Source: a virus. Taken from it: a DNA stretch of 49,666 nt. A program made the position numbers and the translations under genes. Of the stretch, positions 2,665 to 47,394 are shown piece after piece (the first letter of the stretch is position 1; the number at the start of each line of letters is the position of its first letter). Location: the IMG/VR virus record IMGVR_UViG_3300037246_000876, positions 1 through 49,666 of that record; one strand, given 5' to 3'. The notes beneath the pieces were generated by a model that saw nothing but the letters and a program-made list of their open reading frames with translations, searched no databases and was not told the origin of the DNA.

Positions 2665-2707
2665 TGATAAAAATCATATTTTTTGTTAATTGGCAGTTGT
2701 AATTTAG
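2665..2707 (+). promoter_or_regulatory. Operator-promoter site 1
   Basis: The palindrome TGATAAAAATCA (2665-2676) is followed after exactly 23 bp by the -7-like box TAATTTAG (2700-2707). The sequence after the box, TGGTATA, recurs downstream of other promoters in this genome. The leader to the next ATG is 30 nt. The operator occupies the position just upstream of where a -33 TTTG would be. Confidence 0.75.
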
Positions 2708-2737
2708 TGGTATATTAATAATTAAAAATTTAGCGAT

Positions 2738-3115
2738 ATGAAATTAAATGCAAAAACAGTACACGACACATTTCTTGAATGTCTATTTAAGGATGGAGAA
2801 CCAACCGAAAATCATAAGTGGGGAGAAGCAGTTCGAATGAAAGTTGGTTTTAATCCTGAACGACTGAAAGAAAAAGAGCCACTTATTGAAGAACTTTTAA
2901 AAGAACTACCAAATGAATTTCAAAAAAACGGTGGTGGTGGAATGAGTTTTCTGAATATGTGTAATGACAAAAACGGAAACCAATGGGCAGATATGCACAA
3001 AACTATGGATGAGCTTGTGGCTCTTGGAACTGCAACTGATAAACTTTCATTTTTGATGTCGAAAGAAATGTGGAGTGAATTGCCCGGAGGAATGCCTTAT
3101 TTAGTAGTTAATTAA
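2738..3115 (+). CDS. Conserved phage hypothetical protein, 125 aa
   Basis: The protein contains NGGGGMSFLNMCNDKNGNQW near the middle and ends in MWSELPGGMPYLVVN; I recall this pattern from hypothetical proteins of Bacteroidota phages. It has its own operator-controlled promoter and its leader is nearly identical to that of the gene at 35852-36130. It is followed by a structured gene-free region. Function unknown. Confidence 0.8.
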   Translation: MKLNAKTVHDTFLECLFKDGEPTENHKWGEAVRMKVGFNPERLKEKEPLIEELLKELPNEFQKNGGGGMSFLNMCNDKNGNQWADMHKTMDELVALGTATDKLSFLMSKEMWSELPGGMPYLVVN

Positions 3116-3276
3116 TCCGCAAGTTTCCGCTAAATTCTTGCGGTTTCTGCTGGATGCTTTACGAGGTGTCCGGCTTTGTGGGTGAAAGATGTTAATAATC
3201 AAAGATACATAATGATTTTGCTTTATAATCACATATTAGGAGTTATTAAATATGTCATCCATATAATCCAGACGAA

Positions 3277-3284
3277 TATATTTG
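3277..3284 (+). promoter_or_regulatory. -7 box TATATTTG for a candidate ncRNA
   Basis: A perfect TAnnTTTG box in a gene-free region. Transcription would start near 3291, just ahead of a run of hairpins. No palindromic operator is found at the 23-bp position and no clear TTTG at -33. Confidence 0.55.
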
Positions 3285-3289
3285 ATGGA

Positions 3290-3485
3290 TTAATATTTAA
3301 TGCTCCTGATAGCTCGCTATTAACCAGACGGTCGCACCGTCCGAGATACTATTTGTCGTATGATGATTATACGAAGGTGCCGGAAGCGGCGAACGAAAGG
3401 CACCGACACAGCGAAAGCACATAGGATGTAATACTTATTTTGATTATAAAGCTACGCCCCGCACTGAGATAAATGCGGGGCTTTG
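3290..3485 (+). ncRNA. Candidate structured RNA, about 195 nt
   Basis: A gene-free stretch (3116-3533) holds, after the TATATTTG box, four consecutive hairpins: GATAG/CTATT near 3310, GACGGT/ACCGTC near 3328, TCGTAT/ATACGA near 3357, and GGTGCC/GGCACC at about 3375-3405. A strong GCCCCGCA/TGCGGGGC hairpin closes it at 3456-3481. The region is visibly richer in GC than its neighbours and has no convincing reading frame (an 82-codon frame at 3176-3424 has no family features). The part before it (3116-3276) holds a CCGCAAG/CTTGCGG hairpin just after the preceding stop. No known RNA family was recognised. Confidence 0.55.
3456..3485 (+). terminator. GC-rich hairpin, probable terminator
   Basis: An 8-bp GC-rich stem (GCCCCGCA with TGCGGGGC) and a 10-nt loop, followed by a short TTT. 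The U-run is weak, so it may be a stable 3' end rather than a classical intrinsic terminator. Confidence 0.5.
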
Positions 3486-3533
3486 GGGGTGAAAGACTGT
3501 GGGGGTGGGTGTTTTAACTAGATGTTTTGATAT

Positions 3534-4487
3534 ATGGATGAATTAAACAAAGTACATCATAAGAATTTCTTAGATAATGATATTCCAGATAAATCGGTGC
3601 AACTAATAATTGCAGATGCGCCATATTATCGTGTGAAAGGAGAGTTTGATTTTATCTGGAAAACATTTGATGATTATCTAAAGGATGTTGAAAAATGGGC
3701 GATTGAATGTAAAAGGATTTTAGCTGACAATGGGACTTTACTTTGGTATGGAGATGCTAAAAATATTGCTTATGCTCAGATAATATTTGATAAACATTTT
3801 GACCTACTGAATAGTATAGTTTGGGAAAACACAAACGACCATAAACAACAGATAAGATTTAATGAAGATTTGAGGTCATTTGCGCCGCTTACTGAAAGGA
3901 TTTTAATGTATAGTAATGAAACATACAACCTAACACAGTGTATTTATCACATAAGAAACTATATAAGAGCCGAAATAACAAGTGCAAAAGGTAAAATAGT
4001 ATTGAAGCATATAAATGAATCTTTAGGAGCTGCAACAAATGGTGGCGGTGTTGCTTCAGCTTGTTTAAGTTTAGACAAAGCAGAACCAACAATGCTAACA
4101 AAAGAAATGTATGAGAAGTTACAAAAATGGTGTTATCCACACTTACGCAAAGAATATGAAGACTTACGCAAAGAATATGAAGACTTACGGCGACCATTTA
4201 ATAACTCCTTACATTTGGGTGATGTAATAAGAATACCAAATCTTGAAACGAGCAAATACGACCACGACACTATTAAGCCAGAGAAGCTAACAAGGATACT
4301 TATAAATACATGCAGCCGAAAGAATGATCTAATAGCTGTTCCTTTTGCTGGCTCTGGTACAGAATGCGCCATGAGCGCAAAAGAAGGCAGATCATTTATA
4401 GGTTTCGATATTGAAAAGAAATATGTTGATATGTCAAATGAGAGAGCACAAACAATATTAAGAGAACCGCAATTATTTCAAGTTTGA
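3534..4487 (+). CDS. DNA methyltransferase (N6-adenine or N4-cytosine, beta-class order)
   Basis: A 317-residue protein. The catalytic motif IV appears as ADAPYY (residues 27-32), a variant of DPPY/DPPF in which Pro is replaced by Ala. The SAM-binding motif I (FAGSGTE) is near residues 271-277, followed by GFDIEKKYVDMSNER, which is typical of the fold. Motif IV before motif I is the beta-class order. Phage methyltransferases modify phage DNA to evade restriction or signal packaging; the target base and site cannot be read here. Residues about 204-221 contain three near-identical KEYEDLR heptads encoded by a 21-bp tandem repeat. Confidence 0.87.
   Translation: MDELNKVHHKNFLDNDIPDKSVQLIIADAPYYRVKGEFDFIWKTFDDYLKDVEKWAIECKRILADNGTLLWYGDAKNIAYAQIIFDKHFDLLNSIVWENTNDHKQQIRFNEDLRSFAPLTERILMYSNETYNLTQCIYHIRNYIRAEITSAKGKIVLKHINESLGAATNGGGVASACLSLDKAEPTMLTKEMYEKLQKWCYPHLRKEYEDLRKEYEDLRRPFNNSLHLGDVIRIPNLETSKYDHDTIKPEKLTRILINTCSRKNDLIAVPFAGSGTECAMSAKEGRSFIGFDIEKKYVDMSNERAQTILREPQLFQV
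4141..4182 (+). repeat. In-frame 21-bp tandem repeat
   Basis: Two perfect copies of the 21-mer ACTTACGCAAAGAATATGAA+G at 4141-4161 and 4162-4182, followed by a partial third. They encode repeated KEYEDLR heptads inside the methyltransferase, between the catalytic and SAM-binding parts. Copy-number slippage would keep the frame. Confidence 0.85.
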
Positions 4488-4639
4488 TGCAAAACACAAA
4501 CCACGATCTATCATTACCAATTCTCGAAAAAGAACTTAAAGCACTTCGAGAATACAACAGATCACCTAATCAGTTCGGTAAAGTATCAGAAGCCGGATTA
4601 ATTGAGGCTATTGAGAATAAACAAGGTAAATTGTTTTAA
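4487..4639 (+). CDS. Hypothetical protein, 50 aa
   Basis: It starts at an ATG overlapping the methyltransferase stop (TGATG) and encodes a charged helical peptide (MQNTNHDLSLPILEKELKAL...). It ends one base before the next ATG. The coupled junctions support translation. No family recognised. Confidence 0.6.
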   Translation: MQNTNHDLSLPILEKELKALREYNRSPNQFGKVSEAGLIEAIENKQGKLF

Positions 4640-4640
4640 C

Positions 4641-4796
4641 ATGAAAAACCCCGATATCGAAAGATGCAGATTTAATATTGCATTGAGTGAACGAGCTGAA
4701 AAGCAATCAATGAGGCTTATTGACAGGCTAAGGAATAACCCTATCGACCATGTAGTTCTTTGTATTAATATGGTTGTATGTAATAGGCTTAATTGA
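4641..4796 (+). CDS. Hypothetical protein, 51 aa
   Basis: The ATG at 4641 is chosen because it directly follows the upstream stop; the frame is open from a TTG at 4602. The 51-residue product (MKNPDIERCRFNIALSERAE...) looks helical and basic. It is the last rightward gene before a terminator hairpin. Confidence 0.6.
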   Translation: MKNPDIERCRFNIALSERAEKQSMRLIDRLRNNPIDHVVLCINMVVCNRLN

Positions 4797-4819
4797 AGAG
4801 ATTGTAATGTGTGTAATTA

Positions 4820-4864
4820 AAAGCGGTTAATATTCGTATAGTGTATTAACTGCTTTTTTATTTA
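4820..4864 (+). terminator. Rho-independent terminator
   Basis: A long stem (AGCGGTTAATA paired with TATTAACTGCT) ends in TTTTTT. It closes the rightward early transcript, and the genes beyond it are on the other strand. Flanking A and T tracts would let it work on both strands. Confidence 0.8.
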
Positions 4865-4874
4865 AAACAAGTAA

Positions 4875-5003
4875 TCATGAGCATTCGGGCTTTTTACTGT
4901 TTTGTTCTCTCGCCTCCTTCATGATATCACTCTGTCGTTCTCTACATTGCATCATGAATTTAAGGAGCTTTTTAGATGGGTTTTTGATGTGTAGTGTTTT
5001 CAT
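4875..5003 (-). CDS. Small basic protein, 42 aa
   Basis: A short leftward frame beginning MKTLHIKNPSKKLLKFMMQC, basic and helical, with an A-rich leader. It lies 25 bases downstream of a 93-residue gene on the same strand and the two may be co-transcribed. No family recognised. Confidence 0.45.
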   Translation of the reverse strand: MKTLHIKNPSKKLLKFMMQCRERQSDIMKEAREQNSKKPECS

Positions 5004-5028
5004 ATCTTATATTATTAGTATCCAAAGG

Positions 5029-5310
5029 TTAGGGCAAAGTATATCTAACATAGTTTTTCTTCATAAAAAGAAAGTATATGCACACGTATTTTAAACTTAA
5101 TCTTCTCTGATTATACGCCCTTCTAAATAGCTCTTTATTTAATCTCAAATCAACTCTAAACTTTTTAAATAGACTGACCAATACTTTATATGCAAACAAG
5201 ACAATCCTGTCTGTTGGTTTTATTTTGTAAGTTTGAATATAGTATGTATCAAACACATGCCGGTGTAATCTTTCGATGTTGTATTCAATTATTAATTTTA
5301 GCGTTTTCAT
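5029..5310 (-). CDS. Hypothetical basic protein, 93 aa
   Basis: A lysine/arginine-rich protein (MKTLKLIIEYNIERLHRHVF...) without recognisable motifs. Its start is preceded by the A-rich leader ATAAATAAAACTAAAATG typical of this genome. With the 42-residue gene downstream it forms a two-gene leftward unit between a terminator and a gene-free region. Coding status is likely but not certain. Confidence 0.5.
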   Translation of the reverse strand: MKTLKLIIEYNIERLHRHVFDTYYIQTYKIKPTDRIVLFAYKVLVSLFKKFRVDLRLNKELFRRAYNQRRLSLKYVCIYFLFMKKNYVRYTLP

Positions 5311-5651
5311 TTTAGTTTTATTTATCTAAGTTAACATTATTATCCGGTAATCTGAAAAGGTTTGAGGTAAAAGGTACACAAAATAAGTCCCCCTATATCC
5401 CCCTAAAGACATAGAAAGCAGTTTATAATGCGTACCGCTATCATCCGTATAAACTTTAAGGAATCGGCTTTTTGGCTCATAGCGGAAAACAAGTCCCCAG
5501 AAATCACGCTATGATTTAAACACTCAATCTTAATTCGACTCGTTACTTTTTAAAGTGTTTGCAATTCCATCACTGTGATTATGTGATGGGCGTTAAGGCG
5601 GTCTTTGAACTGTTTCCATTTTGGAAATAGTTGATGCCTGATATATTAAAC
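5311..5651. other. Gene-free region with several inverted repeats
   Basis: No convincing reading frame on either strand. It holds at least three clear hairpins: CCGCTAT/ATAGCGG (5435-5485), CCATCAC/GTGATGG (5567-5589, 7-bp stem) and an 11-bp stem AACTGTTTCCA/TGGAAATAGTT (5608-5632). Two near-copies of a C-rich motif (GTCCCCCTATATCCCCC) lie near 5385-5402. It could be the distal part of a leftward RNA starting near 5775, a replication-control region, or the long leader of the 93-residue gene. Confidence 0.5.
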
Positions 5652-5775
5652 AAGAAAAATCCGACCACGTTAAGACTAGCCACAAGAAGCTACGTGTCGG
5701 ATTTAATATGTAATTAAAATAATGTTCAATATTCATCTTGTGGTTTTTGAGGCGCGTCTTAATTCACCTGTATTA
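5652..5775 (-). ncRNA. Candidate small RNA with own promoter and terminator
   Basis: Leftward transcription from the promoter at 5780-5810 would give about 120 nt ending in a strong hairpin: AAATCCGA paired with TCGGATTT, extended by ACGTG/CACGT with one bulge (5658-5704 on the plus strand), followed by TTTTTCTTG. Within it, CCACAAGA near the 5' end is complementary to TCTTGTGG in the terminator loop, so an alternative pairing that breaks the terminator, or a pseudoknot, is possible. There is no reading frame of note. Confidence 0.55.
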
Positions 5776-5779
5776 ACCA

Positions 5780-5810
5780 CAAAGATAGTTGATTGTTTTG
5801 TTTAATCAAA
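5780..5810 (-). promoter_or_regulatory. Canonical Bacteroidota promoter
   Basis: On the minus strand TTTG (5810-5807) and TATCTTTG (5787-5780) are separated by 19 bp, a textbook match to TTTG-N19-TAnnTTTG. The box is followed by TGGTTAATA, like the TGGTATA found after other boxes here. It lies just downstream of the 176-residue gene and drives no gene, hence the ncRNA call. Confidence 0.7.
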
Positions 5811-5812
5811 GT

Positions 5813-6343
5813 TTAAGTGTGTAATTTTCCACCGCTCAATTCACATAGAAATTGCATTACTTTTTCAAGCTCTGGGTTTCTAAAAGCACCGGATAAATAA
5901 TTAACAGGATTATTTAGATTGTGTTTATTGCATTGGATATGTTCGTCACATGCTTTTGATGTTAAGAAAGCGTTACTATATACGTCAATTTCTTGCACGT
6001 TATATTTTGAAAATCCTTTATCTTCTAAGAGTGAATCAATATCATATTCAGAAAGACTTTCATATTGTTTTCTAATCTCTTCGTGGGAGTGAAGCCCAAA
6101 TGCATTATCATGCGCCCATTCGCATAACCATTCAATTTTTTCGTCTAATCTTCTAACTTCACATTCATCTTCATTATTATATAACACCTCGTCGCCAGAA
6201 CCTTCATGCGCTGGCATTTCCTTTTTTTCTTGTATCTGAAAGATATATGGCATGCGTGTGCCTCTATGATCTTGCGTATTCAATTCTTTTGACAAGTTCA
6301 TTAAAAACTCATGCATTTCATCTGATAATTCAATTGTTTTCAT
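5813..6343 (-). CDS. Conserved phage hypothetical protein, 176 aa
   Basis: The N-terminus (MKTIELSDEMHEFLMNLSKE, then TQDHRGTRMPYIFQIQEKKE) resembles a widespread family of phage and prophage proteins of unknown function. An acidic middle region is followed by a C-terminal part with Cys132, Cys138 and Cys166. It is the last gene of a leftward set running from the divergent promoter at 7070. Confidence 0.75.
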   Translation of the reverse strand: MKTIELSDEMHEFLMNLSKELNTQDHRGTRMPYIFQIQEKKEMPAHEGSGDEVLYNNEDECEVRRLDEKIEWLCEWAHDNAFGLHSHEEIRKQYESLSEYDIDSLLEDKGFSKYNVQEIDVYSNAFLTSKACDEHIQCNKHNLNNPVNYLSGAFRNPELEKVMQFLCELSGGKLHT

Positions 6344-6346
6344 AAC

Positions 6347-6520
6347 TCAATCTTTACCAATTAATACTAATTTATCAAGCCCATAAACGAGCACTTTTGT
6401 TTTCTTGTGCACAACTACTATAATCATCTTTTCAGGCGAATTATAGTTGCCTATGCTTGTTATTGTCCCGGATTTGTTTGTTCCTGGGATTAGTGCTTTT
6501 TGTTTTAGTAGGTTTTTCAT
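6347..6520 (-). CDS. Hypothetical protein, 57 aa
   Basis: A beta-rich-looking 57-residue product (MKNLLKQKALIPGTNKSGTI...) that might be a small SH3-like or KOW-like barrel. It ends three bases before the ATG of the 176-residue gene. Its place in a tightly packed leftward series supports translation. Confidence 0.6.
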   Translation of the reverse strand: MKNLLKQKALIPGTNKSGTITSIGNYNSPEKMIIVVVHKKTKVLVYGLDKLVLIGKD

Positions 6521-6524
6521 TTAT

Positions 6525-6692
6525 TTAAGATTTATTTTCTTTTAGCCATTCATTGAATTGTTCGATGTTTCTTTTATCGAAGAGACAATCGCGGCAATCT
6601 ACTTCTTGAGTCAAACAGTGTGCTTCGCCACATAAATAATCTTGCGTATCATTGCTTATGTGAGGTACATTCAATCCTTTAAATTTTTTCAT
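6525..6692 (-). CDS. Small Cys-rich protein, 55 aa
   Basis: It contains four cysteines (CGEAHC then CRDC) and His residues, suggesting a small metal-binding fold. It begins MKKFKGLNVPHISNDTQDYL. It sits between two other small leftward genes with spacings of a few bases. Function unknown. Confidence 0.6.
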   Translation of the reverse strand: MKKFKGLNVPHISNDTQDYLCGEAHCLTQEVDCRDCLFDKRNIEQFNEWLKENKS

Positions 6693-6695
6693 AAT

Positions 6696-6875: not shown

Positions 6876-6896
6876 AATTAAAAATATTACAAGTTA

Positions 6897-7040
6897 TTAC
6901 TTAATCAATAATTCAAAGAAGACAATTGACAAACACATACCTGACAAACACATAAACATCTTACCCCAAGTGCCATCAATCTTAATACCCATTGCAAGGC
7001 ATACCATCATTATTATTATAAACTTTACTACTGTGCCCAT
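6897..7040 (-). CDS. Small membrane protein, 47 aa
   Basis: Two hydrophobic stretches (VVKFIIIMMVCLAMGI and MFMCLSGMCLSIVFFELLI) predict one hairpin or two membrane segments. It is the first gene of the leftward set and starts about 29 nt from the divergent -7 box at 7070-7077. Function unknown. Confidence 0.6.
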   Translation of the reverse strand: MGTVVKFIIIMMVCLAMGIKIDGTWGKMFMCLSGMCLSIVFFELLIK

Positions 7041-7069
7041 ATCATTTATTTTTTTAATTAAACATACCA

Positions 7070-7143
7070 CAAATTTCGGGATAATCTTTTTACTAAACTA
7101 TGATATTTATCAGGTTTTTTGAGTTTTTAATGTTGTAGATTTG
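7070..7143. promoter_or_regulatory. Operator-promoter site 2, bidirectional
   Basis: The palindrome TGATATTTATCA (7101-7112) is flanked on both sides by -7-like boxes at exactly 23 bp: TAGATTTG on the plus strand (7136-7143) and GAAATTTG on the minus strand (7077-7070). Leaders to the first genes are 29 nt each way. The symmetrical spacing strongly suggests that one bound dimer serves both promoters. Confidence 0.75.
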
Positions 7144-7172: not shown

Positions 7173-7418
7173 ATGACAAACTATGATTTATTAAAAGCAT
7201 TTGAAGCCCTACCAAATGATGTTGAAAAATGGAAATGGGTTAAGGCTCACCAAATAACTGGAATTATAATCAAACTTGATAATGACGATACGTTTGGAAC
7301 GTTACCTGATCCAGACGATAAAGATGATGTGCTTATATTTCAGTTTAGTGACTATATTGGATATGGAGGTGTCGAAGAGTTATTGAAGGCTTATGGAATT
7401 AGATCAGAGGGTGTGTAA
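7173..7418 (+). CDS. Acidic phage protein, 81 aa
   Basis: The ATG at 7173 is chosen because the promoter box ends at 7143, which makes the earlier in-frame GTG at 7143 unusable. The product (MTNYDLLKAFEALPNDVEKWKWVK...) has an acidic stretch LPDPDDKDDV and ends near GYGGVEELLKAYGI; similar short proteins occur in other phages. A single-gene rightward unit that ends at the terminator at 7503. Function unknown. Confidence 0.75.
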   Translation: MTNYDLLKAFEALPNDVEKWKWVKAHQITGIIIKLDNDDTFGTLPDPDDKDDVLIFQFSDYIGYGGVEELLKAYGIRSEGV

Positions 7419-7532: not shown

Positions 7533-7535
7533 AGT

Positions 7536-7614
7536 TGGATAGAAGGGATTCGAACCCCTATAGCCTAAGCGACAGATTTACAGTCTGCTGATTTAACCAA
7601 TTTACCATCTATCC
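7536..7614 (-). tRNA. tRNA-Tyr(GTA)
   Basis: A complete class II cloverleaf: acceptor GGATAGA/TCTATCC, anticodon arm GCAGA-CTGTAAA-TCTGT giving anticodon GTA, a long variable arm, T-loop TTCGAAT and discriminator A. CCA is not encoded. Confidence 0.9.
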
Positions 7615-7620
7615 AGTATG

Positions 7621-7703
7621 CGGAAGGTAAAGGAATCGAACCCTCAACCGTAAAGTTGGTACGGTTTTCAAGACCGCTTAAGCACCATTGCTTACTACCT
7701 TCC
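7621..7703 (-). tRNA. tRNA-Ser(TGA)
   Basis: Acceptor GGAAGGT/ACCTTCC, anticodon arm GCGGT-CTTGAAA-ACCGT giving TGA, a long variable arm as expected for serine, T-loop TTCGATT and discriminator G. Confidence 0.9.
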
Positions 7704-7709
7704 ATTTAG

Positions 7710-7783
7710 AGGTGATAATTGGATTCGAACCAATGACTTTCAGGGTTGCAACCATCTACCTTAGACCACTCAGACATATCACC
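7710..7783 (-). tRNA. tRNA, probably Cys(GCA), with weak anticodon stem
   Basis: The acceptor (GGTGATA/TATCACC) and T-arm (TTGG-TTCGAAT-CCAA) are sound, and the D-arm resembles bacterial tRNA-Cys. The anticodon loop TTGCAAC gives GCA, but the proposed stem GATGG/CCTGA pairs only at its two inner positions. It may be a degenerate tRNA, or its identity may differ. Confidence 0.65.
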
Positions 7784-7787
7784 ATTG

Positions 7788-7875
7788 CGGAAGACAAGAG
7801 AATTGAACTCTCACCGCCATTATAGCGGACCTGTTTAGCAGACAAGCGCAACGAACCAATATTTGCCTATCTTCC
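7788..7875 (-). tRNA. tRNA-Ser(GCT)
   Basis: Acceptor GGAAGAT/GTCTTCC, anticodon arm CTTGT-CTGCTAA-ACAGG giving GCT, a long variable arm (CCGC/GCGG) and discriminator G. With the TGA isoacceptor it covers two serine codon boxes. Confidence 0.9.
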
Positions 7876-7880
7876 GTTTG

Positions 7881-7954
7881 TACTCCGAGTCGGACTTGAA
7901 CCGACAACTCTCAGGTCTTAAACCTGATGCCTCTACCAATTGGGCTACCGGAGC
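7881..7954 (-). tRNA. tRNA with anticodon TAA (Leu) in a class I body
   Basis: Acceptor GCTCCGG/TCGGAGT, D-arm, anticodon arm TCAGG-TTTAAGA-CCTGA giving TAA, T-arm GTCGG-TTCAAGT-CCGAC and discriminator A. The anticodon reads UUA (Leu), but the variable loop is short (about 5 nt), whereas bacterial tRNA-Leu normally has a long variable arm. Fold and anticodon are clear; the charged amino acid is less certain. Confidence 0.85.
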
Positions 7955-7956
7955 AA

Positions 7957-9593: not shown

Positions 9594-9919
9594 TGTTTAA
9601 GTAGCTTTATATAATCTTTCAGATCTTGGAATCTAGTATCTTGGCTTGCACTAAATGTTTCAAATTTACCATCAAAATATTTTTCTAATTTTTCTAATTT
9701 ATCATCTTCTGCATCTGCATGGGTTTTTATTGCATCATCAGTGTGCTTTATTGCTATATCATGATATTTATCAACATAAATTGTTGATGCTGCGTTTTCA
9801 ATTTTAGTTTCTTTTTTGATATACCCGCTAGCGGTAACCGTTGCGGCAAAAGCAAACATAGCAGATATAAAAGTCATTAATAAATAGACTTTCCAGTTTT
9901 CCTTAAGATTGTCACCCAT
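9590..9919 (-). CDS. Membrane protein with coiled-coil tail, 109 aa
   Basis: It has an N-terminal membrane segment (YLLMTFISAMFAFAATVTA, residues about 12-30) and a long charged helical tail rich in Asp, Lys and Glu. Such proteins occur beside lysis enzymes in phages of Bacteroidota and could be a holin or a spanin-related component. It overlaps genes on both sides. Confidence 0.65.
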   Translation of the reverse strand: MGDNLKENWKVYLLMTFISAMFAFAATVTASGYIKKETKIENAASTIYVDKYHDIAIKHTDDAIKTHADAEDDKLEKLEKYFDGKFETFSASQDTRFQDLKDYIKLLKQ

Positions 9920-15600: not shown

Positions 15601-16740
15601 TTATTTATATTTCTTTTGAACAACATTGATATCTAAAGTCACGCCAACCCCAACGATGGTAAAATAGAGAATAAATGAATTTTCATATTGTGCTAAAAGT
15701 TTTAAATATTCTCTATCTAATGTATATACAGGATTTGCCGTTGTTATTGTTTTTGGGCTTGAAACTTCATCGCCCGATACTGTTGTCCCGACTTTAACCG
15801 TTCCACTTGTTCCGGTTTTTAAAACAAACATTAAAGTATCAGGTAAATAATTTTGTGTTATTGTTAATTGTTGATTCCCTGCAACATCTTCTAAATTTAG
15901 GAATGTAATATTTTGCATATCTTCTGGTATTGGCTCAGGTAATTCGCCACTATCGTCTGAATTGACACCCGGCGTTTCAAACTCTGAGCAAATTAATGTA
16001 ACTTGTTTTGATGTAGTACTTCCAAATCGTTCAGATGTTAATTCTTCTCCCGTATATCTGATGTCATTGATATAAAAGAAAAATAAAGATTGAGATAATA
16101 CTAATTGTCTTACAATATATTCGGGTATTTCTCCGGTTGTAAATTCTCCATTAAATGTTGTAGCCGAATATGTTTTTTGTTTTTTGTTTTGATTGTCGTA
16201 AATATCCTGGTCGGTTTCATCTTCTCCATCTGGTATTCGCGCGACAATATTAACAAAGTGTCTGATTCCCGTTGAATAATCTACGAATTCCGTGCTTGTT
16301 TCATTGAAGTAATCAAGTCTCAATATGTTTTTGTGCGATGTCTCAACGTCGATAGGCTCACTTTCGTATTCTACTGAGTCTTGAACAGAATCAGTTCCAT
16401 TTACAAATATTGTAAAATTGCCGTTTGTATCGAATATATATGTAAATTCCCATGTCGAATAATTTGTATAAACCTCTTTTTCGGTTACGGATATTGGAGT
16501 GCTCGAATTGTCTGAGTTATCGACTATTCTAGCCGTTACGGGGTCGTCAAAATCTGTCCTTATTTGAATAGTTACCTTGTTTCTATCATCGGTGCTATCG
16601 CTATTGATTAATTGACAATAAGGCTTTATAATCAATCCCACTTGCTCACGTTCGCTGTGTAGTTGATTGTTATAATTTGGCAATAAATCATTTCTTATCG
16701 CAAATCGTAAACTATTATATGGCGATATAATAAAGCTCAT
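15601..16740 (-). CDS. Tail or baseplate protein, 379 aa
   Basis: A beta-rich acidic protein (MSFIISPYNSLRFAIRNDLL...) between the 869-residue tail protein and the fibre. The promoter-like box TAAATTTG lies on the minus strand at 16761-16768, about 20 bases before its ATG. Position suggests a distal tail component connecting the fibre. No family recognised. Confidence 0.7.
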   Translation of the reverse strand: MSFIISPYNSLRFAIRNDLLPNYNNQLHSEREQVGLIIKPYCQLINSDSTDDRNKVTIQIRTDFDDPVTARIVDNSDNSSTPISVTEKEVYTNYSTWEFTYIFDTNGNFTIFVNGTDSVQDSVEYESEPIDVETSHKNILRLDYFNETSTEFVDYSTGIRHFVNIVARIPDGEDETDQDIYDNQNKKQKTYSATTFNGEFTTGEIPEYIVRQLVLSQSLFFFYINDIRYTGEELTSERFGSTTSKQVTLICSEFETPGVNSDDSGELPEPIPEDMQNITFLNLEDVAGNQQLTITQNYLPDTLMFVLKTGTSGTVKVGTTVSGDEVSSPKTITTANPVYTLDREYLKLLAQYENSFILYFTIVGVGVTLDINVVQKKYK

Positions 16741-16786
16741 GATATTGTTTCTTTAAATTCCAAATTTACTAAATTTATGACATTTA

Positions 16787-19396
16787 TCATATTTCTATTG
16801 GTGTTACGTATTCACTTATCTCTACTCCTGTTAATCTTCCCTTGCCACTTTGGCCTCCTGTTTGTACATCTTGAATCCAAATATATTTATAATCGTCATT
16901 AGTATTCATCCTCCATTTTACCAATCCTAAATACTTCTGTTTAGTTTCTCCAGCGAAAGTGTCATTTAATACATCAATGACATCTTTATTAATAGGTAAA
17001 TCAAATTCCCATTGTATTGCAGTTAGGTATGGTTCATCCAAATCATTTATCTGAACATCTGCATTTTCAACAACTGGCACTGTTTCAGTGTCTTTTTGTG
17101 TTGATAATGTGCTGTTTTTATCAGATGTGTTAAACCTTATAAATTTACTTAAGTTGTTTTCAAGTGCTGCCCTTATCTCTGATCCGTGATTTCTTAGATT
17201 TCTGGCTGGTGTTATGTCGAGATTCATAGAATTATCGCCATCGATTGAATTTTCAATAGATGTATATCCTTCATTTGTTTTTGCCTTGTACTGAGCCTTT
17301 CCAAAATAGACATCATCCAAAACTAATCCCTCAGTGCTAACCATTTTAAAACTTATAGTTCCATCTTCAGGTATATCGTCAGCTATTAATGAAAATGTTC
17401 TAAATGATTGCAATTCTGTTTCTTCTGTTGGGGGTATATTGGCGTCGTAATAGATAAATGTTTCTGTCGTTATTAACCATGTGCCATCTGATTGTAGATA
17501 ATAAACATTTGCTCCGGCATTTAATTTAATGGAAAAGAAAGGATTAATAACAGCATCCCCTATATTCTCATAGCTGAAACTAATATTTAATGATTCTGAT
17601 TGCGCGACCATTGCAATATCTTGTTTTATCTGTGCAAATCCGGCAAATCCTGATACAAAATAACATCTATTAGAGTTTAATATAAGTTTTCTTAAAACAA
17701 CAGTAGTTCCCAACAAATCCCAATCATCAGGGGTGTTATCATCTGTCCAGCTTTCAAAATCCCCATTTATAACAAATGTCGTATTCTTGATAAGAGTGAT
17801 TAGAAAATTACTCGTATCATATCGCGTATCGTCAGTTGGAAATTCTGATTTACTTTTAGCCCTTGCGTTGTTTATTGCTTGCTGATCTGCTCTTGCAATA
17901 GACACAGCATTATATTCATTACTTACAACAGATATAGGTGTACTAAAACTTGATTTCTGATTATACTCAAACAAACCATCTTTTTGCTCATATTCTGCCT
18001 TGCTGTACCCTATTGATATCCTGCTTACTATATTTGTTTTTAATGTCGATTCTGTTACATTCGCCGCATTGTCAATAGTTAATACAATTCTATCATCAAA
18101 GAAGTATCTTTTTTCTTCTAATCTAATATTATCAATGCCTCCTATTTTCTCAATCCCTACACCTATAGGCCTTATACCAAAAATAGTTGTGAATATATCT
18201 TTAAATCCTAGCGTTATCGGCGATTCATCGCGTGTAAATTGCCTTATTCTTTCGCCATTTGTTATTAAAATGTTTCTTAGTGCTCCGTCTGACGCATAAC
18301 TTCGCGGTTCTGAATTTGTGCCTCCTAAAAGTTCAGAATAAAGTGGAATGTCGGTATTTGATATTATCTGTAAAAGCCTGCTTACTAATTCATGAAGCAA
18401 CATTCCCGACACCTCTATCTCTGGCAATGCGTCAACATTTGCCGCAGTATCCACTCTGGCAAGGTAGGGGGGCAAACTTTCAAATACTGTGACTAATCCA
18501 CCTTCTACTGACAATATAAAATAGTCACCATCTGAAACGGTATCGAATAATTCTCCATCAGGATTATTATATGAAAGATTTTTAGTTGAAGGAAATGGAC
18601 TTGTTCCGGTTATGGATGCCAATATATCAGTGCCTGGATTTTGCTGAATATCTGATGAATTATAATGCTTTAATCTTAAATTAATGGTCGGATCAAAGCT
18701 CTGTATTTCAAAATCCGTATCAAAATTAATTGTGATTAGCAAACTATTCACTGATGAAACAATATAAAAAGCTCCATCTATGCTATCCGTCACGGTAGAG
18801 TCAATAACCGAAACTACGTTATCATCTTCGCTTGATGTTATTGTTAATGGTGCTGCGTGTTTGTTGTTTTGAATGGGTGCATTTGCTGATGTTAACGCCC
18901 CAAATAAATTGATAGGTTTTGCCGGAAGAGTTATAAACACTTCTTCATTGGTGAATCCTGAAATTTGCAAACCGTCCAGGCTTTCAAGTTTTGATAATTG
19001 AGGTTTATCTGATTCTCTGTTTTTAATGGTGTTCCAAAAAGAAGAATCTACAATATTTATATCAACGCTTTTACCATCGTTCCCATTAATATATTTAGCT
19101 TTTACAAAATCAAAACTTCCCTGAAACCTTAAAAATTCTTCATTCCCATTGTCAAAATCTTCCTCGTATTGCTTAAATGTTGCAGAACTTTCAAACCCTG
19201 TCTGGGTTTTTATATCTCTCAACAATTGTGCTCCGGTTCCTTTAAATGTAAGATTATTTGCAGCGAATTTTCTAAAAATACCTTTATATGTATCAGATCG
19301 AGGAAATACACTTTCGCTATCCTTCCATCCGCCCGGTGCATCAACATCCCTGTTCTCTAGGTTCGGTGTCTCTATCCTATATCTGAATTTCCCCAT
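16787..19396 (-). CDS. Large tail protein, 869 aa, with a carbohydrate-binding-like domain
   Basis: Directly downstream of the tape measure gene with a 1-base junction, so likely a distal tail or baseplate protein. Around residues 540-690 the sequence VINGDFESWTDDNTPDDW, followed by a beta-rich region ending LVLDDVYFG, is the pattern of galactose-binding-like (CBM-type) domains, which may contact host glycans. The N-terminal part (MGKFRYRIETPNLENRDVDA) looks like a tail protein conserved in Bacteroidota phages. Assignment rests on position plus the domain. Confidence 0.75.
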   Translation of the reverse strand: MGKFRYRIETPNLENRDVDAPGGWKDSESVFPRSDTYKGIFRKFAANNLTFKGTGAQLLRDIKTQTGFESSATFKQYEEDFDNGNEEFLRFQGSFDFVKAKYINGNDGKSVDINIVDSSFWNTIKNRESDKPQLSKLESLDGLQISGFTNEEVFITLPAKPINLFGALTSANAPIQNNKHAAPLTITSSEDDNVVSVIDSTVTDSIDGAFYIVSSVNSLLITINFDTDFEIQSFDPTINLRLKHYNSSDIQQNPGTDILASITGTSPFPSTKNLSYNNPDGELFDTVSDGDYFILSVEGGLVTVFESLPPYLARVDTAANVDALPEIEVSGMLLHELVSRLLQIISNTDIPLYSELLGGTNSEPRSYASDGALRNILITNGERIRQFTRDESPITLGFKDIFTTIFGIRPIGVGIEKIGGIDNIRLEEKRYFFDDRIVLTIDNAANVTESTLKTNIVSRISIGYSKAEYEQKDGLFEYNQKSSFSTPISVVSNEYNAVSIARADQQAINNARAKSKSEFPTDDTRYDTSNFLITLIKNTTFVINGDFESWTDDNTPDDWDLLGTTVVLRKLILNSNRCYFVSGFAGFAQIKQDIAMVAQSESLNISFSYENIGDAVINPFFSIKLNAGANVYYLQSDGTWLITTETFIYYDANIPPTEETELQSFRTFSLIADDIPEDGTISFKMVSTEGLVLDDVYFGKAQYKAKTNEGYTSIENSIDGDNSMNLDITPARNLRNHGSEIRAALENNLSKFIRFNTSDKNSTLSTQKDTETVPVVENADVQINDLDEPYLTAIQWEFDLPINKDVIDVLNDTFAGETKQKYLGLVKWRMNTNDDYKYIWIQDVQTGGQSGKGRLTGVEISEYVTPIEI

Positions 19397-31671: not shown

Positions 31672-31732
31672 CAAAGTTAGAAACTTATAATTACATACGC
31701 AAAAAATATTAAATAAAAAATGATTTTTGTCA
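31672..31732 (-). promoter_or_regulatory. Operator-promoter site 3, upstream of the portal gene
   Basis: On the minus strand the palindrome TGACAAAAATCA (31732-31721) precedes the portal gene. At the usual 23-bp distance there is only a poor box (TATGTAAT, 31697-31690). A very good promoter, TTTG-N20-TAACTTTG, lies further downstream (31703-31672), but it would leave an 8-nt leader. Either could be used. Confidence 0.55.
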
Positions 31733-34854: not shown

Positions 34855-34868
34855 AATTTTCTAAATAG

Positions 34869-34942
34869 AGCCTAATGAAGGATTTGAACCCTCGACCCGC
34901 TCATTACAAGTGAGCTGCTCTAACCAACTGAGCTAATCAGGC
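34869..34942 (-). tRNA. tRNA-Thr(TGT)
   Basis: Acceptor GCCTGAT/ATTAGGC, D-arm GCTC/GAGC, anticodon arm GCTCA-CTTGTAA-TGAGC giving TGT, T-loop TTCAAAT and discriminator T. It is separate from the main tRNA cluster and sits just downstream of a candidate large RNA. Confidence 0.9.
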
Positions 34943-35851: not shown

Positions 35852-36130
35852 TTAATTGTGATTTCTGCCTAACGCTTGGATGCATCTAGATCTTACTTCA
35901 TGTGAATTAAACCCAATACCACTCACACCGGCAGTATATATAACCTCCGACACAATAGTTTTAAACGGTTCTGATTTAGGGATAAAAAAAGAAGTGCCAC
36001 GATAAAGAGATATTTCACACTTTCTTTTAGCGCCATGTCTGTGTATTGGGTCTATTACTTCAGAAAACGCTACGACATTCATCTCTTTACATATGCTGGC
36101 ATCGTATAGGCTATAGTTTAAAATTTTCAT
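35852..36130 (-). CDS. Hypothetical protein, 92 aa
   Basis: It reads MKILNYSLYDASICKEMNVV and contains HRHGAKRKCEISLYRGTSFF. It has an operator-bearing promoter (site 4), and the 22 bases around its start (TTAAAAATTTAGCGATATGA and on) match the leader of the gene at 2738. It is followed by the 36-nt hairpin element. Unknown function. Confidence 0.65.
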   Translation of the reverse strand: MKILNYSLYDASICKEMNVVAFSEVIDPIHRHGAKRKCEISLYRGTSFFIPKSEPFKTIVSEVIYTAGVSGIGFNSHEVRSRCIQALGRNHN

Positions 36131-36162: not shown

Positions 36163-36205
36163 CAAAGATACAATCCTTATTTTACATTAAATATGATAAA
36201 AATCA
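36163..36205 (-). promoter_or_regulatory. Operator-promoter site 4
   Basis: On the minus strand the palindrome TGATTTTTATCA (36205-36194) is followed after exactly 23 bp by TATCTTTG (36170-36163). The leader to the ATG at 36130 is 32 nt. Confidence 0.75.
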
Positions 36206-39308: not shown

Positions 39309-39381
39309 TAAAGGTCGGAACAATATTTTTAATTAAATATGATTTTTATCATGTTATTTGATTTTTTTAGTTGGATATTTG
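39309..39381. promoter_or_regulatory. Operator-promoter site 5, bidirectional
   Basis: The palindrome TGATTTTTATCA (39340-39351) has GATATTTG at 22 bp on the right (39374-39381) and GACCTTTA at 23 bp on the left (39316-39309, minus strand). It lies at the divergence of the leftward and rightward halves of the genome, so it is the main control point candidate. Confidence 0.75.
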
Positions 39382-39757: not shown

Positions 39758-39800
39758 TGACTTTTATCATATTTTTTTAAATAAACTATCCTGACCTTTG
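39758..39800 (+). promoter_or_regulatory. Operator-promoter site 6
   Basis: The palindrome TGACTTTTATCA (39758-39769) and, after exactly 23 bp, GACCTTTG (39793-39800). The ATG at 39805 is only 4 bases further, so the transcript would be almost leaderless. Confidence 0.6.
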
Positions 39801-39804: not shown

Positions 39805-40284
39805 ATGAAAAACAAAGAAAAGCAAATAACTGAAATATTCTCAGGCTTGTATAATGCGGGCTTAATCATGACTCATGAACGTAAAATTGAAATTGGTTTT
39901 GACTCCGGCGTTGAACAGGCTTTAGTGTTTGGTATTCCTATTAAGGATATAATTCAGATAATTAAAGATACCTGCAAGGAGTTGGACGGCAGAAAATATA
40001 ATGCAACACAACACATACTTAATAGAATTAAACCATTGGATGCCGCTTTCCATTACAGTTTTATCGAACCTAATATCATTGACCTTGATTACAAATGTGA
40101 GGATTTTGAAATATTTGGGGATATCGTAATAACATTATCCGGCTCCGTATCTTTTGAAGGAACAGAGATTGTTTATCTGGACAATAAAGGTGAACATATT
40201 TGTACATACAATAAGCAAAAGATATTCGACTGGTTAAAACAAGTTCCATTATATGACTATAATTTAAAACTATGGGAACCATGA
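39805..40284 (+). CDS. Hypothetical protein, 159 aa
   Basis: The N-terminal half is helical (KQITEIFSGLYNAGLIMTHE) and the C-terminal half beta-rich (ITLSGSVSFEGTEIVYLDNK). It overlaps the next small gene by 4 bases. No family recognised. Confidence 0.65.
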   Translation: MKNKEKQITEIFSGLYNAGLIMTHERKIEIGFDSGVEQALVFGIPIKDIIQIIKDTCKELDGRKYNATQHILNRIKPLDAAFHYSFIEPNIIDLDYKCEDFEIFGDIVITLSGSVSFEGTEIVYLDNKGEHICTYNKQKIFDWLKQVPLYDYNLKLWEP

Positions 40285-43400: not shown

Positions 43401-43402
43401 TC

Positions 43403-44062: not shown

Positions 44063-44514
44063 TTGAAAGAGATAATTTCATAAGGCAAACGAATAACTTA
44101 ATTGGAAAGTTTAAAGACTCCAAAAGTCCTATTAAAGAGTATTTAAAAACAGTTTGTATTTACTCTGAAAAGATAGATACATTAAAAACTAAAAACATAC
44201 ATGAGCTAAAAACTGAATTAGACCGCATTCAAATGTTTATTGAAATAATATGTTTCCATGTGAATATAGGACTGGAAACATTCATATCATTTACGCCTTT
44301 AGGCTCATTTATAATTGCATTGTCTGATGATTTTATGGAATACTTTCTGATGCATAAGAACGAAACAAAGGAATTGATTAAATGGGATATGATTTGTGAA
44401 CTACAAGACAAATACAACCAAGCAAAACTTGAAACATTGGTATCTGGAAATTTGTGTGATTTTAATATTGAAATCGGGAAAGATTTAAAACTAATAGACT
44501 TATGGGAGAATTAA
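44059..44514 (+). CDS. Hypothetical protein, 151 aa
   Basis: A helical protein (MIERDNFIRQTNNLIGKFKD...) between the initiator-like gene and the RecA-fold ATPase, overlapping both. It may be an accessory replication or helicase-loading factor by position. No family recognised. Confidence 0.6.
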   Translation: MIERDNFIRQTNNLIGKFKDSKSPIKEYLKTVCIYSEKIDTLKTKNIHELKTELDRIQMFIEIICFHVNIGLETFISFTPLGSFIIALSDDFMEYFLMHKNETKELIKWDMICELQDKYNQAKLETLVSGNLCDFNIEIGKDLKLIDLWEN

Positions 44515-45365
44515 GAGATAGCGAACTATACGCCAATAAACAGGAGTCAAAAGAAGATAAAATTGATTGTGCTTCTATAATTTCAGAATCATATATTCAT
44601 ATTTCACAAAACATTAAGCGACCGCCCATTCTATTATCTCTTAGGCAATACGGAAATAGGGATGTACCAGTAATGACATTATCTAACTTTTCCGTAATAA
44701 AAGGAGCCAAAAAGACCCGTAAATCATTTGTGACTGCATTCATTCAGGCTTCATTAGCTTATAATAAAGTAATTTCAAACTTATTTGTCCCAAAACAGAA
44801 AGATGCAGGAGTTGTATATATTGATACAGAACAGGCCAACTATGATGTTTATACAAAGCTTTCCGCAACGGTTAATTTGTCAGGGGAGTTACTACAATGT
44901 GATAATTTAAAAGCTGTCGCATTCAGGAAGTACGAAACCAGCTTAAGATTAATGTTAATTGAGCACTTGATATATAATTCTCCGGGGGTTAAATTATTTG
45001 TTATTGATGGAATCAGGGATTTGATAAGAGATATCAATTCACCGGACGAGGCCACAATGATAGCAGACAAGCTAATGAAATGGACGGCAGATACCAATTG
45101 CCATATAATAGTGATAATACACGAAAATAAAGAAGGAGGCAAAGCCAGGGGGCACATAGGAACTGAACTAACAAATAAAGCTGAAACTATTATAAAAGTT
45201 AAATTGTGCGAACAGGATAAACGAATATCAATTGCATCTGGCGAAGGAACCAGGGGCGCACCGTTTGATGATTTCGCTTTTCAAATATCACAAAATGAAT
45301 TAGGCATTTATCCTGAAATTTGCGATATGCCGGAAAGCGAAAAGCTTAACACTGATAGATTTTAA
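44502..45365 (+). CDS. RecA-fold ATPase of the replication module (RepA/DnaB-like)
   Basis: A 287-residue ATPase. A Walker A variant is KGAKKTRKSF (residues 67-76), then VVYIDTEQ (104-111), Walker B LFVIDGIRDL (165-174), a sensor strand HIIVIIHENK (201-210) and RGHIGTEL (216-223). This is the domain order of hexameric RecA-like helicases and of RepA. A glycine-poor Walker A of this kind is common in such phage ATPases. It would serve as replicative helicase or loader. An SSB-like tail is encoded just downstream in the -1 frame. Confidence 0.78.
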   Translation: MGELRDSELYANKQESKEDKIDCASIISESYIHISQNIKRPPILLSLRQYGNRDVPVMTLSNFSVIKGAKKTRKSFVTAFIQASLAYNKVISNLFVPKQKDAGVVYIDTEQANYDVYTKLSATVNLSGELLQCDNLKAVAFRKYETSLRLMLIEHLIYNSPGVKLFVIDGIRDLIRDINSPDEATMIADKLMKWTADTNCHIIVIIHENKEGGKARGHIGTELTNKAETIIKVKLCEQDKRISIASGEGTRGAPFDDFAFQISQNELGIYPEICDMPESEKLNTDRF

Positions 45366-45415
45366 CAATAGAACCAGACAACGATTACTTTGCAAAAATA
45401 GATATACCATTTTAA
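45362..45415 (+). other. Out-of-frame SSB-like tail, LTIEPDNDYFAKIDIPF
   Basis: One base before the ATPase stop, the -1 frame is open for 17 codons (45362-45412) to TAA 45413-45415 and reads LTIEPDNDYFAKIDIPF. An acidic stretch ending in D-I-P-F is the C-terminal hallmark of SSB proteins. There is no ATG for a separate peptide. It could be reached by -1 slippage at GATTTTAA, or the stop may result from an indel in the T-run. Confidence 0.5.
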
Positions 45416-45435
45416 TAATTAAAAACAATATAATT

Positions 45436-45813
45436 ATGAAATACAAAATTAAATACAAAGAATTAACAGAATATTTGAAAACGTTAAAAGAGAGTGATTT
45501 TCAAAGAAACAGGCATAATCCAGATGCGGCAATGAAAGAGGGACATTCAATTGATGATATAATATTCTTCAAGATGGATAAGTCCAAAATAACATTAGAC
45601 ACTGTGATTGATTACGGAGCTCCTTTTTTGGTTGATGCTCTTGGCAATGATTTATCAATTATCATTCAGACTAAAAGAAAATATAAATTACCAAATGGTA
45701 GAGCTGTGAAAGGTAAATTCGACAGGACATTAATTAATGATTGTCGAAAATTATATGGCACTCCTTTAAATGGATATTGGATTATCCCCGATAGATTCCT
45801 AATTGCACAATAA
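45436..45813 (+). CDS. Hypothetical protein, 125 aa
   Basis: A basic protein (MKYKIKYKELTEYLKTLKES...) with YKLPNGRAVKGKFDRTLIND near the middle and a Trp-rich end. Its leader AAAAACAATATAATTATG is of the A-rich type. Unknown function. Confidence 0.6.
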   Translation: MKYKIKYKELTEYLKTLKESDFQRNRHNPDAAMKEGHSIDDIIFFKMDKSKITLDTVIDYGAPFLVDALGNDLSIIIQTKRKYKLPNGRAVKGKFDRTLINDCRKLYGTPLNGYWIIPDRFLIAQ

Positions 45814-45836
45814 TAACATTTATAAAAAACAATATT

Positions 45837-46307
45837 ATGGAACAAGTATTTATTAAATGTCCTGAATGTGGAGAAATTCAACTGCATGTATTTGAAGGTG
45901 GTATTTATTTTCAGTGTACTGAATGTAATAAAATTCAACATAACTTCCCAGCGCCACTAAAAGCCCTGTCAATAAAACAGCCGTGGGCATGGTTAATAGT
46001 CAATGGATATAAGGATATTGAAAACCGTAATACATTAAAGAATTTTAGGGGTGATTTTTTGATACATGCCGGGTTGCAATTTGATAAGGAATGTATGCAT
46101 AAATTAGATTTTGATTTAATTATACCTGATGATGCTAGATATAATTACGGTGGTATAATCGGACATGCAACAATAACCGACTCAATAACCAAATCTGACT
46201 CACCGTGGTTTAGTGGCAAATATGCATTTGTGATGAAGGATCAGCAAACTTTACCGTTCACACCATGCAAAGGAAAACTTTCATTTTTTAATCCTGAAAT
46301 ACTTTAG
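45837..46307 (+). CDS. Zinc ribbon plus ASCH-domain protein
   Basis: A 156-residue protein with an N-terminal zinc ribbon (CPECGEI, CTECNK, residues 9-36) and an ASCH domain from about 40 (ALSIKQPWAWLIVNGYKDIE, then NFRGDFLIHAG, GGIIGHATITDSI). ASCH domains bind RNA and some have hydrolase activity. The N-terminal fusion is less usual. Located among replication genes, perhaps acting in RNA-level regulation. Confidence 0.75.
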   Translation: MEQVFIKCPECGEIQLHVFEGGIYFQCTECNKIQHNFPAPLKALSIKQPWAWLIVNGYKDIENRNTLKNFRGDFLIHAGLQFDKECMHKLDFDLIIPDDARYNYGGIIGHATITDSITKSDSPWFSGKYAFVMKDQQTLPFTPCKGKLSFFNPEIL

Positions 46308-46309
46308 CC

Positions 46310-46786
46310 ATGACAGAACAACAATTCAATAACCAATTCTTCCGCAAAGGAATGAGTGTAAAATTAGCTAATAATGCAATTCTGCCGATATTAGGCGTTA
46401 ATTTTGATACAATGTACATAACGATAGGTAAAGGTGAATGGGTTCATTATTCAAGGTGTGAGGTATATTATAATGAACTTTTAGATTTGTTTAAGGATAT
46501 AGTTTCACAGTATCTAAAAATATCACCCGAACATGTTGTAAGGAAAATAAGACAGGGACAAAATGCCGTAGCTCGCCATTTATTAATGATTATGGCCTAT
46601 GATTCTGGGAAATACACTCAACAACAAATAGCTACTTATTGTAATTGTAAAAATCATGATACCGTAACTCATGCACACAGAGTAAGGAGATATGATTATG
46701 ATATTATTTCACATCTGAAAGTCATTAAAATTGAGAATGGTCATTTGATTAAAAATATTGAAAAGTATAAATGTTTTAAAACCTGA
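46310..46786 (+). CDS. DnaA domain IV-like DNA-binding protein
   Basis: A 158-residue protein. Residues about 60-130 (VVRKIRQGQNAVARHLLMIM, then QQQIATYCNCKNHDTVTHA) match the DnaA domain IV signature (R-x-x-R/N-x-x-A-R and H-D/T-T-V-x-H-A). The N-terminal 60 residues are not DnaA-like. Such truncated DnaA-domain proteins occur in phages and are proposed to bind origin-like sequences. Its 3' end overlaps the operator of site 7 by 3 bases. Confidence 0.78.
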   Translation: MTEQQFNNQFFRKGMSVKLANNAILPILGVNFDTMYITIGKGEWVHYSRCEVYYNELLDLFKDIVSQYLKISPEHVVRKIRQGQNAVARHLLMIMAYDSGKYTQQQIATYCNCKNHDTVTHAHRVRRYDYDIISHLKVIKIENGHLIKNIEKYKCFKT

Positions 46787-46826
46787 TAAAAGTCATTGTT
46801 TATGATATTGGGGTTTGGTAAATTTG
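46784..46826 (+). promoter_or_regulatory. Operator-promoter site 7
   Basis: The palindrome TGATAAAAGTCA (46784-46795) and, after exactly 23 bp, TAAATTTG (46819-46826). The palindrome's last base starts ATTG, spaced 20 bp from the -7 box. The leader is 25 nt. Confidence 0.78.
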
Positions 46827-46851
46827 AATATAATAACTTAAAATTAAGAAA

Positions 46852-47085
46852 ATGATTAAAAGTAGCATTGAAAAAATATCTGAGGGCATAGGTTTTGACA
46901 TAGCACATTCAGACGATCAAGTACAGGCTAATTTAATAAATGGATTAAGCAGAGGGTTATCTAACTCTATGCAGAAACATGATCGTGAGATGCAGTTATG
47001 TTACATAGTCGATAAATTAACACCAGATTCATGTAATATAATTAAAGAATTAGCGGAATTTGTTAAGTTAAAAGAGAATAAATAA
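46852..47085 (+). CDS. Conserved phage protein, 77 aa
   Basis: It begins MIKSSIEKISEGIGFDIAHS and later has DKLTPDSCNIIKELAEFVKL. Helical, with operator-controlled expression. A similar short protein is common upstream of recombination genes. Function unknown. Confidence 0.65.
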   Translation: MIKSSIEKISEGIGFDIAHSDDQVQANLINGLSRGLSNSMQKHDREMQLCYIVDKLTPDSCNIIKELAEFVKLKENK

Positions 47086-47127
47086 GCCTTTGTAAATTTG
47101 TAATAAATTAATTAAACAATATTAGCT

Positions 47128-47316
47128 ATGGACAAAGTACCTAAATTAGTCGAAAGAGAAGATGCGTTTTGTGAAAGCATTGATTGCACAAGAAACAAAG
47201 CAGAGCAATTTATTTATTGCAGTAAAGATGGTAAATCTATGATGAATTTGCCTTATATTTTACTTGAGTATAAACAGTGGATGATTGAACAAGGTTTTAT
47301 TAAACAGTTAAAGTAG
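47128..47316 (+). CDS. Hypothetical protein, 62 aa
   Basis: The product (MDKVPKLVEREDAFCESIDC...) resembles a small domain with EYKQWMIEQGFIKQLK at the end. Its leader ACAATATTAGCTATGG follows the 77-residue gene by about 40 bases. Unknown function. Confidence 0.6.
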   Translation: MDKVPKLVEREDAFCESIDCTRNKAEQFIYCSKDGKSMMNLPYILLEYKQWMIEQGFIKQLK

Positions 47317-47351
47317 CTCTTTTAAAATAAGCTCAAAGAAAATAAATAACC

Positions 47352-47394
47352 TGACAAATATCATATTAATTAACAAATGATATCGCGATATTTG
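47352..47394 (+). promoter_or_regulatory. Operator-promoter site 8
   Basis: The palindrome TGACAAATATCA (47352-47363) and, after exactly 23 bp, GATATTTG (47387-47394). A second, bulged inverted repeat, ACAAAT-gat-ATCG/CGAT-ATTTGT (47373-47395), overlaps the -7 box. The leader to the recT ATG is 21 nt. Confidence 0.75.

Follow-up and report, generated by a model that had tools for sequence, protein, structure and literature searches.

The palindromic core TGA-N6-TCA is bound by dimers of the CRP/FNR superfamily, and at the class II promoters of Escherichia coli FNR and CRP the activator sits at −41.5. Phage T4 middle promoters depend on MotA, which is phage encoded and has its box at −30. In phage T1, the pir, dam, and recE promoters are repressed by the host cyclic AMP (cAMP)-CRP complex (PMC6737242). 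Here we analyze the promoters of a phage represented by IMG/VR record IMGVR_UViG_3300037246_000876, the whole of which (49,666 bp) is referred to as the window. An earlier reading of the bare sequence (the original prediction) had proposed that the 12-bp palindrome TGAY-N4-RTCA recurs across this genome 23 bp ahead of a TAnnTTTG-like −7 box. Our analysis suggests that these are quite likely class II promoters activated by a CRP/FNR-superfamily protein of the host.

All eight intergenic sites of the original prediction do carry the palindrome (Table 1). Altogether, TGAY-N4-RTCA occurs at 12 sites in the window, against a shuffle mean of 4.6 (standard deviation, 2.0), and 9 of the 12 are intergenic, with intergenic DNA accounting for 10.0% of the sequence (curated genes; binomial P = 1.7e-7). 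The sites at 9762, 37308, and 37451 lie inside genes, and that at 16778 occupies a short intergenic gap. A box with at most one mismatch to TAnnTTTG was found 23 bp downstream in seven palindrome arms and 22 bp downstream in two, while every other spacing from 10 to 40 bp gave 0 to 2 boxes each; in 300 dinucleotide shuffles, the number of 23-bp boxes averaged 0.10 and never exceeded 1. The palindrome is thus neither as frequent within genes as between them nor indifferent to the 23-bp spacing. The nine predicted promoter arms (2665+, 7101+, 7101−, 36194−, 39340+ at 22 bp, 39340−, 39758+, 46784+, and 47352+) are real, seven of them strong and two weaker. The palindrome was also rightly described as standing in place of a −33 TTTG, since, in all but one of the seven strong arms, the best TTTG match at 18 to 21 bp had two of four mismatches, leaving the −33 element weak or absent. 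Among the intergenic promoter positions of the window, none held a near-match element (a palindrome with one or two mismatches plus a box at 22 to 24 bp).

One way to dismiss this pattern would be to attribute it to palindromes arising by chance in AT-rich promoters or to the recent duplication of a single promoter. So short a core is common in AT-rich genomes, and an exact-pattern IMG/VR scan for TGAT...ATCA returned, among the matches listed, mostly unrelated and redundant coding sequences (only individually inspected loci from this looser scan are used below). However, the shuffle and binomial tests oppose chance, the spacer sequences diverge between arms, and unrelated phages show the same spacing, so that we give this explanation practically no weight.

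By sequence, TGAY-N4-RTCA is a TGA-N6-TCA core palindrome. The sigma-A box TAnnTTTG of Flavobacterium psychrophilum spans −12 to −5 (PMC9723704), and with a 23-bp spacing the palindrome centre therefore falls at −41.5 from the predicted start, which is the position of a class II activator. A centre at −41.5 explains both the constant spacing and the absent −33 element. The proposal of a single protein held in a constant position with respect to RNA polymerase is supported, as is the phage-wide range of its putative targets, which include recT, the gene after the DnaA-like open reading frame (ORF), and the divergent promoters.

The same architecture is present on bacterial chromosomes. When the genomes of 85,000 species (one per species) were scanned with the pattern TGAC-W4-GTCATA-N21-TAnnTTTG, at least 80 records contained it; among the matches listed, essentially all were from Bacteroidota, two of them being Ignavibacteria, a group that GTDB places in Bacteroidota, and two others being labeled simply "uncultured bacterium." In a survey of 80 evenly drawn Bacteroidota genomes, TGAT-W4-ATCA and TAnnTTTG were 23 bp apart in 26 of 72 pairs and 24 bp apart in 7, other spacings having about 2 pairs each, and TGAC-W4-GTCA was followed by the box at 23 bp in 6 of 10 pairs. 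Sixteen host genomes, each picked for having at least one match, gave 67 matches, compared with none for the reversed pattern. Genes downstream of the host element encode cbb3 oxidase subunit I (ccoN; TIGR00780, E = 1e-196), oxygen-independent coproporphyrinogen oxidase (hemN; TIGR00538, E = 2e-126), Cu nitrite reductase (nirK; TIGR02376, E = 3e-105), the cbb3 maturation protein FixS/CcoS (ccoS), and a CRP/FNR protein (PF00027 plus PF13545), as well as products that by eye are UspA-like, OmpW-like, truncated-globin-like, and persulfide-dioxygenase-like. Judged from their annotation and upstream sequence, these host genes form an FNR-type regulon whose operator, spacing, and −7 box are identical to those of the phage; a system peculiar to phages is therefore not supported, its elements being chromosomal in Bacteroidota as well.

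FNR-like proteins with an N-terminal Cys-x2-Cys are encoded in these host loci and have a palindrome of their own just upstream; one of them matches FNR of PDB entry 5e44 (E = 7e-17) and the Crp/Fnr protein 2gau (E = 3e-28). At the fnr-like genes near ccoN (loci L272, L274, L314, L318, L326, L330, and L332), TGATN4RTCA lies 8 to 10 bp from the gene's own TAnnTTTG box, and since this is a repressing position, it suggests negative autoregulation of fnr-like genes in Flavobacteriia.

Could the phage palindromes likewise be repressor operators, with a host regulator or a phage repressor blocking the −33 region so that the genes stay silent in one condition? The palindrome does abut the −33 position, the host fnr-like genes carry it where it would repress, and T1 promoters are repressed by host cAMP-CRP (PMC6737242). 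Yet an exact 23-bp spacing is not required of a repressor operator, and arms devoid of a −33 TTTG would be weak unaided. The 23-bp geometry moreover precedes host ccoN and hemN, functions activated elsewhere by FNR-type proteins, and the cbb3 oxidase and heme enzymes of F. psychrophilum rise under oxygen limitation (PMC9723704). We regard repression as very improbable. The original prediction had left activator and repressor side by side; a palindrome centred at −41.5 and the lack of a −33 element now narrow the choice and point to class II activation.

Who encodes the binder? A ribbon-helix-helix or helix-turn-helix (HTH) protein of the phage had been proposed, which our searches did not bear out. 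A six-frame search for the Crp-type HTH (HTH_Crp_2) found none in 18 phage records (the window and 17 others, all of which may be incomplete), with positive controls recovered in 14 of 14 cases, and no candidate binder was common to the motif-bearing phages compared, whether of the ribbon-helix-helix or the HTH type. The DnaA_C-domain protein at 46310-46786 was considered and disfavored. Phage G001, with a portal protein 72% identical to that of the window, carries three exact elements and has almost no early genes in common with the window. Given the lack of a phage Crp-type HTH and the different early genes of G001, a host protein is the simplest common factor.

An activator of the phage's own, unrelated to Crp and using the same site by chance, could be, for instance, the DnaA_C protein, the protein encoded at 39805-40284, or one whose gene fell outside the ends of the contig. 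Such activators are common in phages, the window record may be incomplete, and L069, a 9.7-kb phage record with the same promoters, has both a homologue of 39805-40284 and a DnaA_C-like gene. Against this, the phage core, spacing, box, and T-rich 3′ flank match the host FNR-type regulon, and G001 possesses the element with hardly any shared early genes, just as the other motif-bearing phage loci compared have almost no proteins in common with the window. We consider a phage-encoded activator improbable, albeit less so than repression. The window record starts within an ORF (positions 1 to 106, KDKAKELAKNERRSLGTYIE) that by eye resembles part of a ribbon-helix-helix protein; the record is either cut at this point or circularly permuted.

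Among other phages, L069 has six such arms. One precedes its homologue of 39805-40284 (30% identity over 154 amino acids), as 39758 does in the window; an operator after the DnaA_C-like gene is equivalent to the window site 46784; and the arm that corresponds to the one at recT in the window stands upstream of an ERF recombinase. The promoter plan has thus been kept although the recombinase differs. A search with the 39805-40284 protein returned L069 alone. Elsewhere we found three arms each in G432 and G433 (overlapping sequences), three in G431, and two each in G435 and G017, always at exactly 23 bp; these other records were found by the 23-bp pattern, so that the first site in each is ascertained and only the further sites are independent. 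The strict TGAC form was present in 6 stretches among 2.9 million viral contigs, compared to 3 for a shifted-spacing control. The operator, box, and partial spacer CATAGTTTTCGCCTYCRTATGGC are common to G432 (locus L417, 12056) and G017 (locus L421, 8070 and 9289), phages of very different size, in which the promoters sharing CATAGTTTTCGCCTYCRTATGGC precede similar-looking early proteins. In G435 (48 kb), the operator-promoter copies 6737+ and 27070− are nearly identical, 20 kb apart, and on opposite strands.

The explanation that we favor is that the phage probably borrows a host protein to turn on its genes, most likely an FNR-like protein encoded near the cbb3 oxidase genes (ccoN). A dimer of this protein would bind TGAY-N4-RTCA centered at −41.5, immediately upstream of the degenerate −33 sequence, and would bring RNA polymerase with sigma-A to the TAnnTTTG box in the manner of a class II activator. 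At no fewer than nine transcription starts, among them that of recT and those of two divergent control regions, the phage would have copied a promoter class of its host, and its program would be tied to a global regulator of the host and, if that regulator is oxygen responsive, to low oxygen or the redox state.

The activator might instead be another CRP/FNR paralogue of the host, responsive to nitric oxide or carbon, which is a sub-case of the same explanation and would leave mechanism and geometry unchanged. CRP/FNR paralogues recognize similar motifs, a difficulty stated in PMC8510549, where the CRP/FNR homologues of Ignavibacteria, Flavobacteriales, and Saprospiraceae metagenome-assembled genomes were assigned to carbon sensing; that assignment favors a paralogue, as do the two different CRP/FNR types that adjoin such host sites and the slight difference between phage and host flanks. 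The host genes at these sites, however, are mostly microaerobic and denitrification genes, and we hold a paralogue to be unlikely, if clearly less so than a phage-encoded activator. With less certainty, the host targets favor oxygen as the signal over nitric oxide or the carbon state.

Several points weigh against host activation by an FNR-like protein. The phage sites favor TGAT with CC or A as the 5′ flank, unlike the TTGAT...ATCAA of E. coli FNR: every phage arm has C or A as the base preceding TGAY, so that none has the E. coli-type TTGAT-N4-ATCAA. Phage arms prefer TGAT with AACC or AACA 5′ flanks; their 3′ flank is T-rich as in host sites, where the base following RTCA is mostly T and not A. 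The window record lacks end repeats and is possibly incomplete, and a phage-encoded factor may have been missed for that reason. That the regulator is present in the phage's actual host is an assumption. A host search by portal protein gave two distant matches among 395 Bacteroidota genomes, and named phages with a related portal or capsid (∼25% identity) infect Flavobacterium, Croceibacter, Bacteroides, and Parabacteroides. Several Bacteroidota CRP/FNR paralogues may share the core, which weakens any assignment of the sensed signal. Finally, the relatives G003, G004, G006, G009, G011, and G012, with similar structural genes, show no clear intergenic element, which rules out a universal phage feature and implies a trait gained and lost.

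We can only tentatively go further and propose, as a possibility falling somewhat short of an even call, that certain Bacteroidota phages form a class whose entire gene-expression program is gated by the host oxygen- or redox-sensing FNR-like protein, a general activator that would take the place of one encoded by the phage, with infection proceeding only, or best, at low oxygen. If true, phage productivity would be a direct function of the host respiratory state, and oxygen-dependent infection would be predictable from sequence. As a by-product, the analysis yields an operator/promoter rule, TGAY-W4-RTCA-N23-TAnnTTTG, for the FNR-type regulon across Bacteroidota; in the open-access literature we found neither a published definition of this rule nor a prior description of its use as a main phage promoter class.

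Table 1. Palindromes, associated −7 boxes, and selected genes of the window
Feature	Coordinates	Strand	−7 box	Spacing	Gene or remark
Operator TGATAAAAATCA	2665..2676	+	TAATTTAG, 2700-2707	23 bp	Next gene 2738-3115 (PHROG_26039, unknown)
Divergent operator TGATATTTATCA	7101..7112	Both arms	+, TAGATTTG, 7136-7143; −, GAAATTTG, 7070-7077	Both 23 bp	7173-7418 (+); small-ORF block starting at 7040 (−)
Palindrome TGATAAATGTCA	16778..16789	−	Perfect TAAATTTG, 16761-16768	9 bp	Ninth intergenic site; before gene 15601-16740
Operator TGACAAAAATCA	31721..31732	−	TAACTTTG, 31672-31679		Portal-gene promoter; TTTG at 31700-31703
Operator TGATTTTTATCA	36194..36205	−	TATCTTTG, 36163-36170	23 bp	35852-36130 (−)
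Divergent operator TGATTTTTATCA	39340..39351	Both arms	+, GATATTTG, 39374-39381; −, GACCTTTA, 39309-39316 (4/6 match)	+, 22 bp; −, 23 bp	
Operator TGACTTTTATCA	39758..39769	+	GACCTTTG, 39793-39800	23 bp	39805-40284; ATG 4 bp on
Stand-alone DnaA C-terminal (HTH) domain protein	46310..46786	+			PF08299, E = 4.4e-8
Operator TGATAAAAGTCA	46784..46795	+	TAAATTTG, 46819-46826	23 bp	At end of DnaA_C-like gene; gene 46852-47085
Operator TGACAAATATCA	47352..47363	+	GATATTTG, 47387-47394	23 bp	recT
RecT-like annealing protein	47416..48342	+			Main identified target; PHROG_148, E = 4.7e-19

Two intergenic sites depart from the common plan. Site 31721 lacks a box at 23 bp and is instead located 41 bp ahead of the −7 box of an ordinary TTTG-N20-TAACTTTG promoter; with its predicted centre at about −59.5, it is of another geometry and not class II. 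In G001, too, the portal gene is preceded by a palindrome (24116), and most other relatives have none at the portal site. The geometry of site 16778 resembles the 8- to 10-bp spacing at the host fnr-like genes, and from this position it would repress; it is uncertain whether it marks a repressed phage gene or arose by chance. A phylum-wide peak at the repressor position of 8 to 10 bp was looked for and was absent beyond fnr-like genes, so that a repressor reading of this site remains weak. The protein at 46310-46786 has the DnaA C-terminal domain without AAA+, and so does that at 3591-3995 of L069, in an equivalent position. The window further contains five transfer RNA genes (a Tyr, Ser, Ser, Leu cluster at 7534-7954 and a single Thr at 34868-34942) and genes for the recombination proteins NinB/Orf (276-707, PHROG_319) and NinG/Rap (1805-2419, PHROG_5034), here in a Bacteroidota phage.

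The promoter class itself is not new in kind, and T1 provides a precedent for the action of a host CRP-family protein on phage promoters. With the E. coli class II FNR and CRP promoters, the phage arms share the TGA-N6-TCA core, the centre at −41.5, a nonconsensus −35/−33 element, and the RNA polymerase with the housekeeping sigma factor; they differ in the Bacteroidota −7 box TAnnTTTG, in lacking the 5′ T of TTGAT, and in having phage genes as targets. The chromosomal FNR-type regulon of Bacteroidota (ccoN, ccoS, hemN, and nirK) is alike in palindrome, 23-bp spacing, −7 box, and T-rich 3′ flank, whereas the phage arms are set apart by their preferred TGAT and 5′ flanks and by their targets, which are replication and recombination genes as well as unknown early genes. 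As in T1 (PMC6737242), a host regulator of the CRP/FNR superfamily would govern phage transcription, but here through a class II activator geometry repeated genome-wide, whereas CRP represses in T1. As with MotA of T4, one factor would substitute for the −35 contact at many phage promoters; in contrast to MotA, the factor here is apparently host encoded and would act from −41.5.

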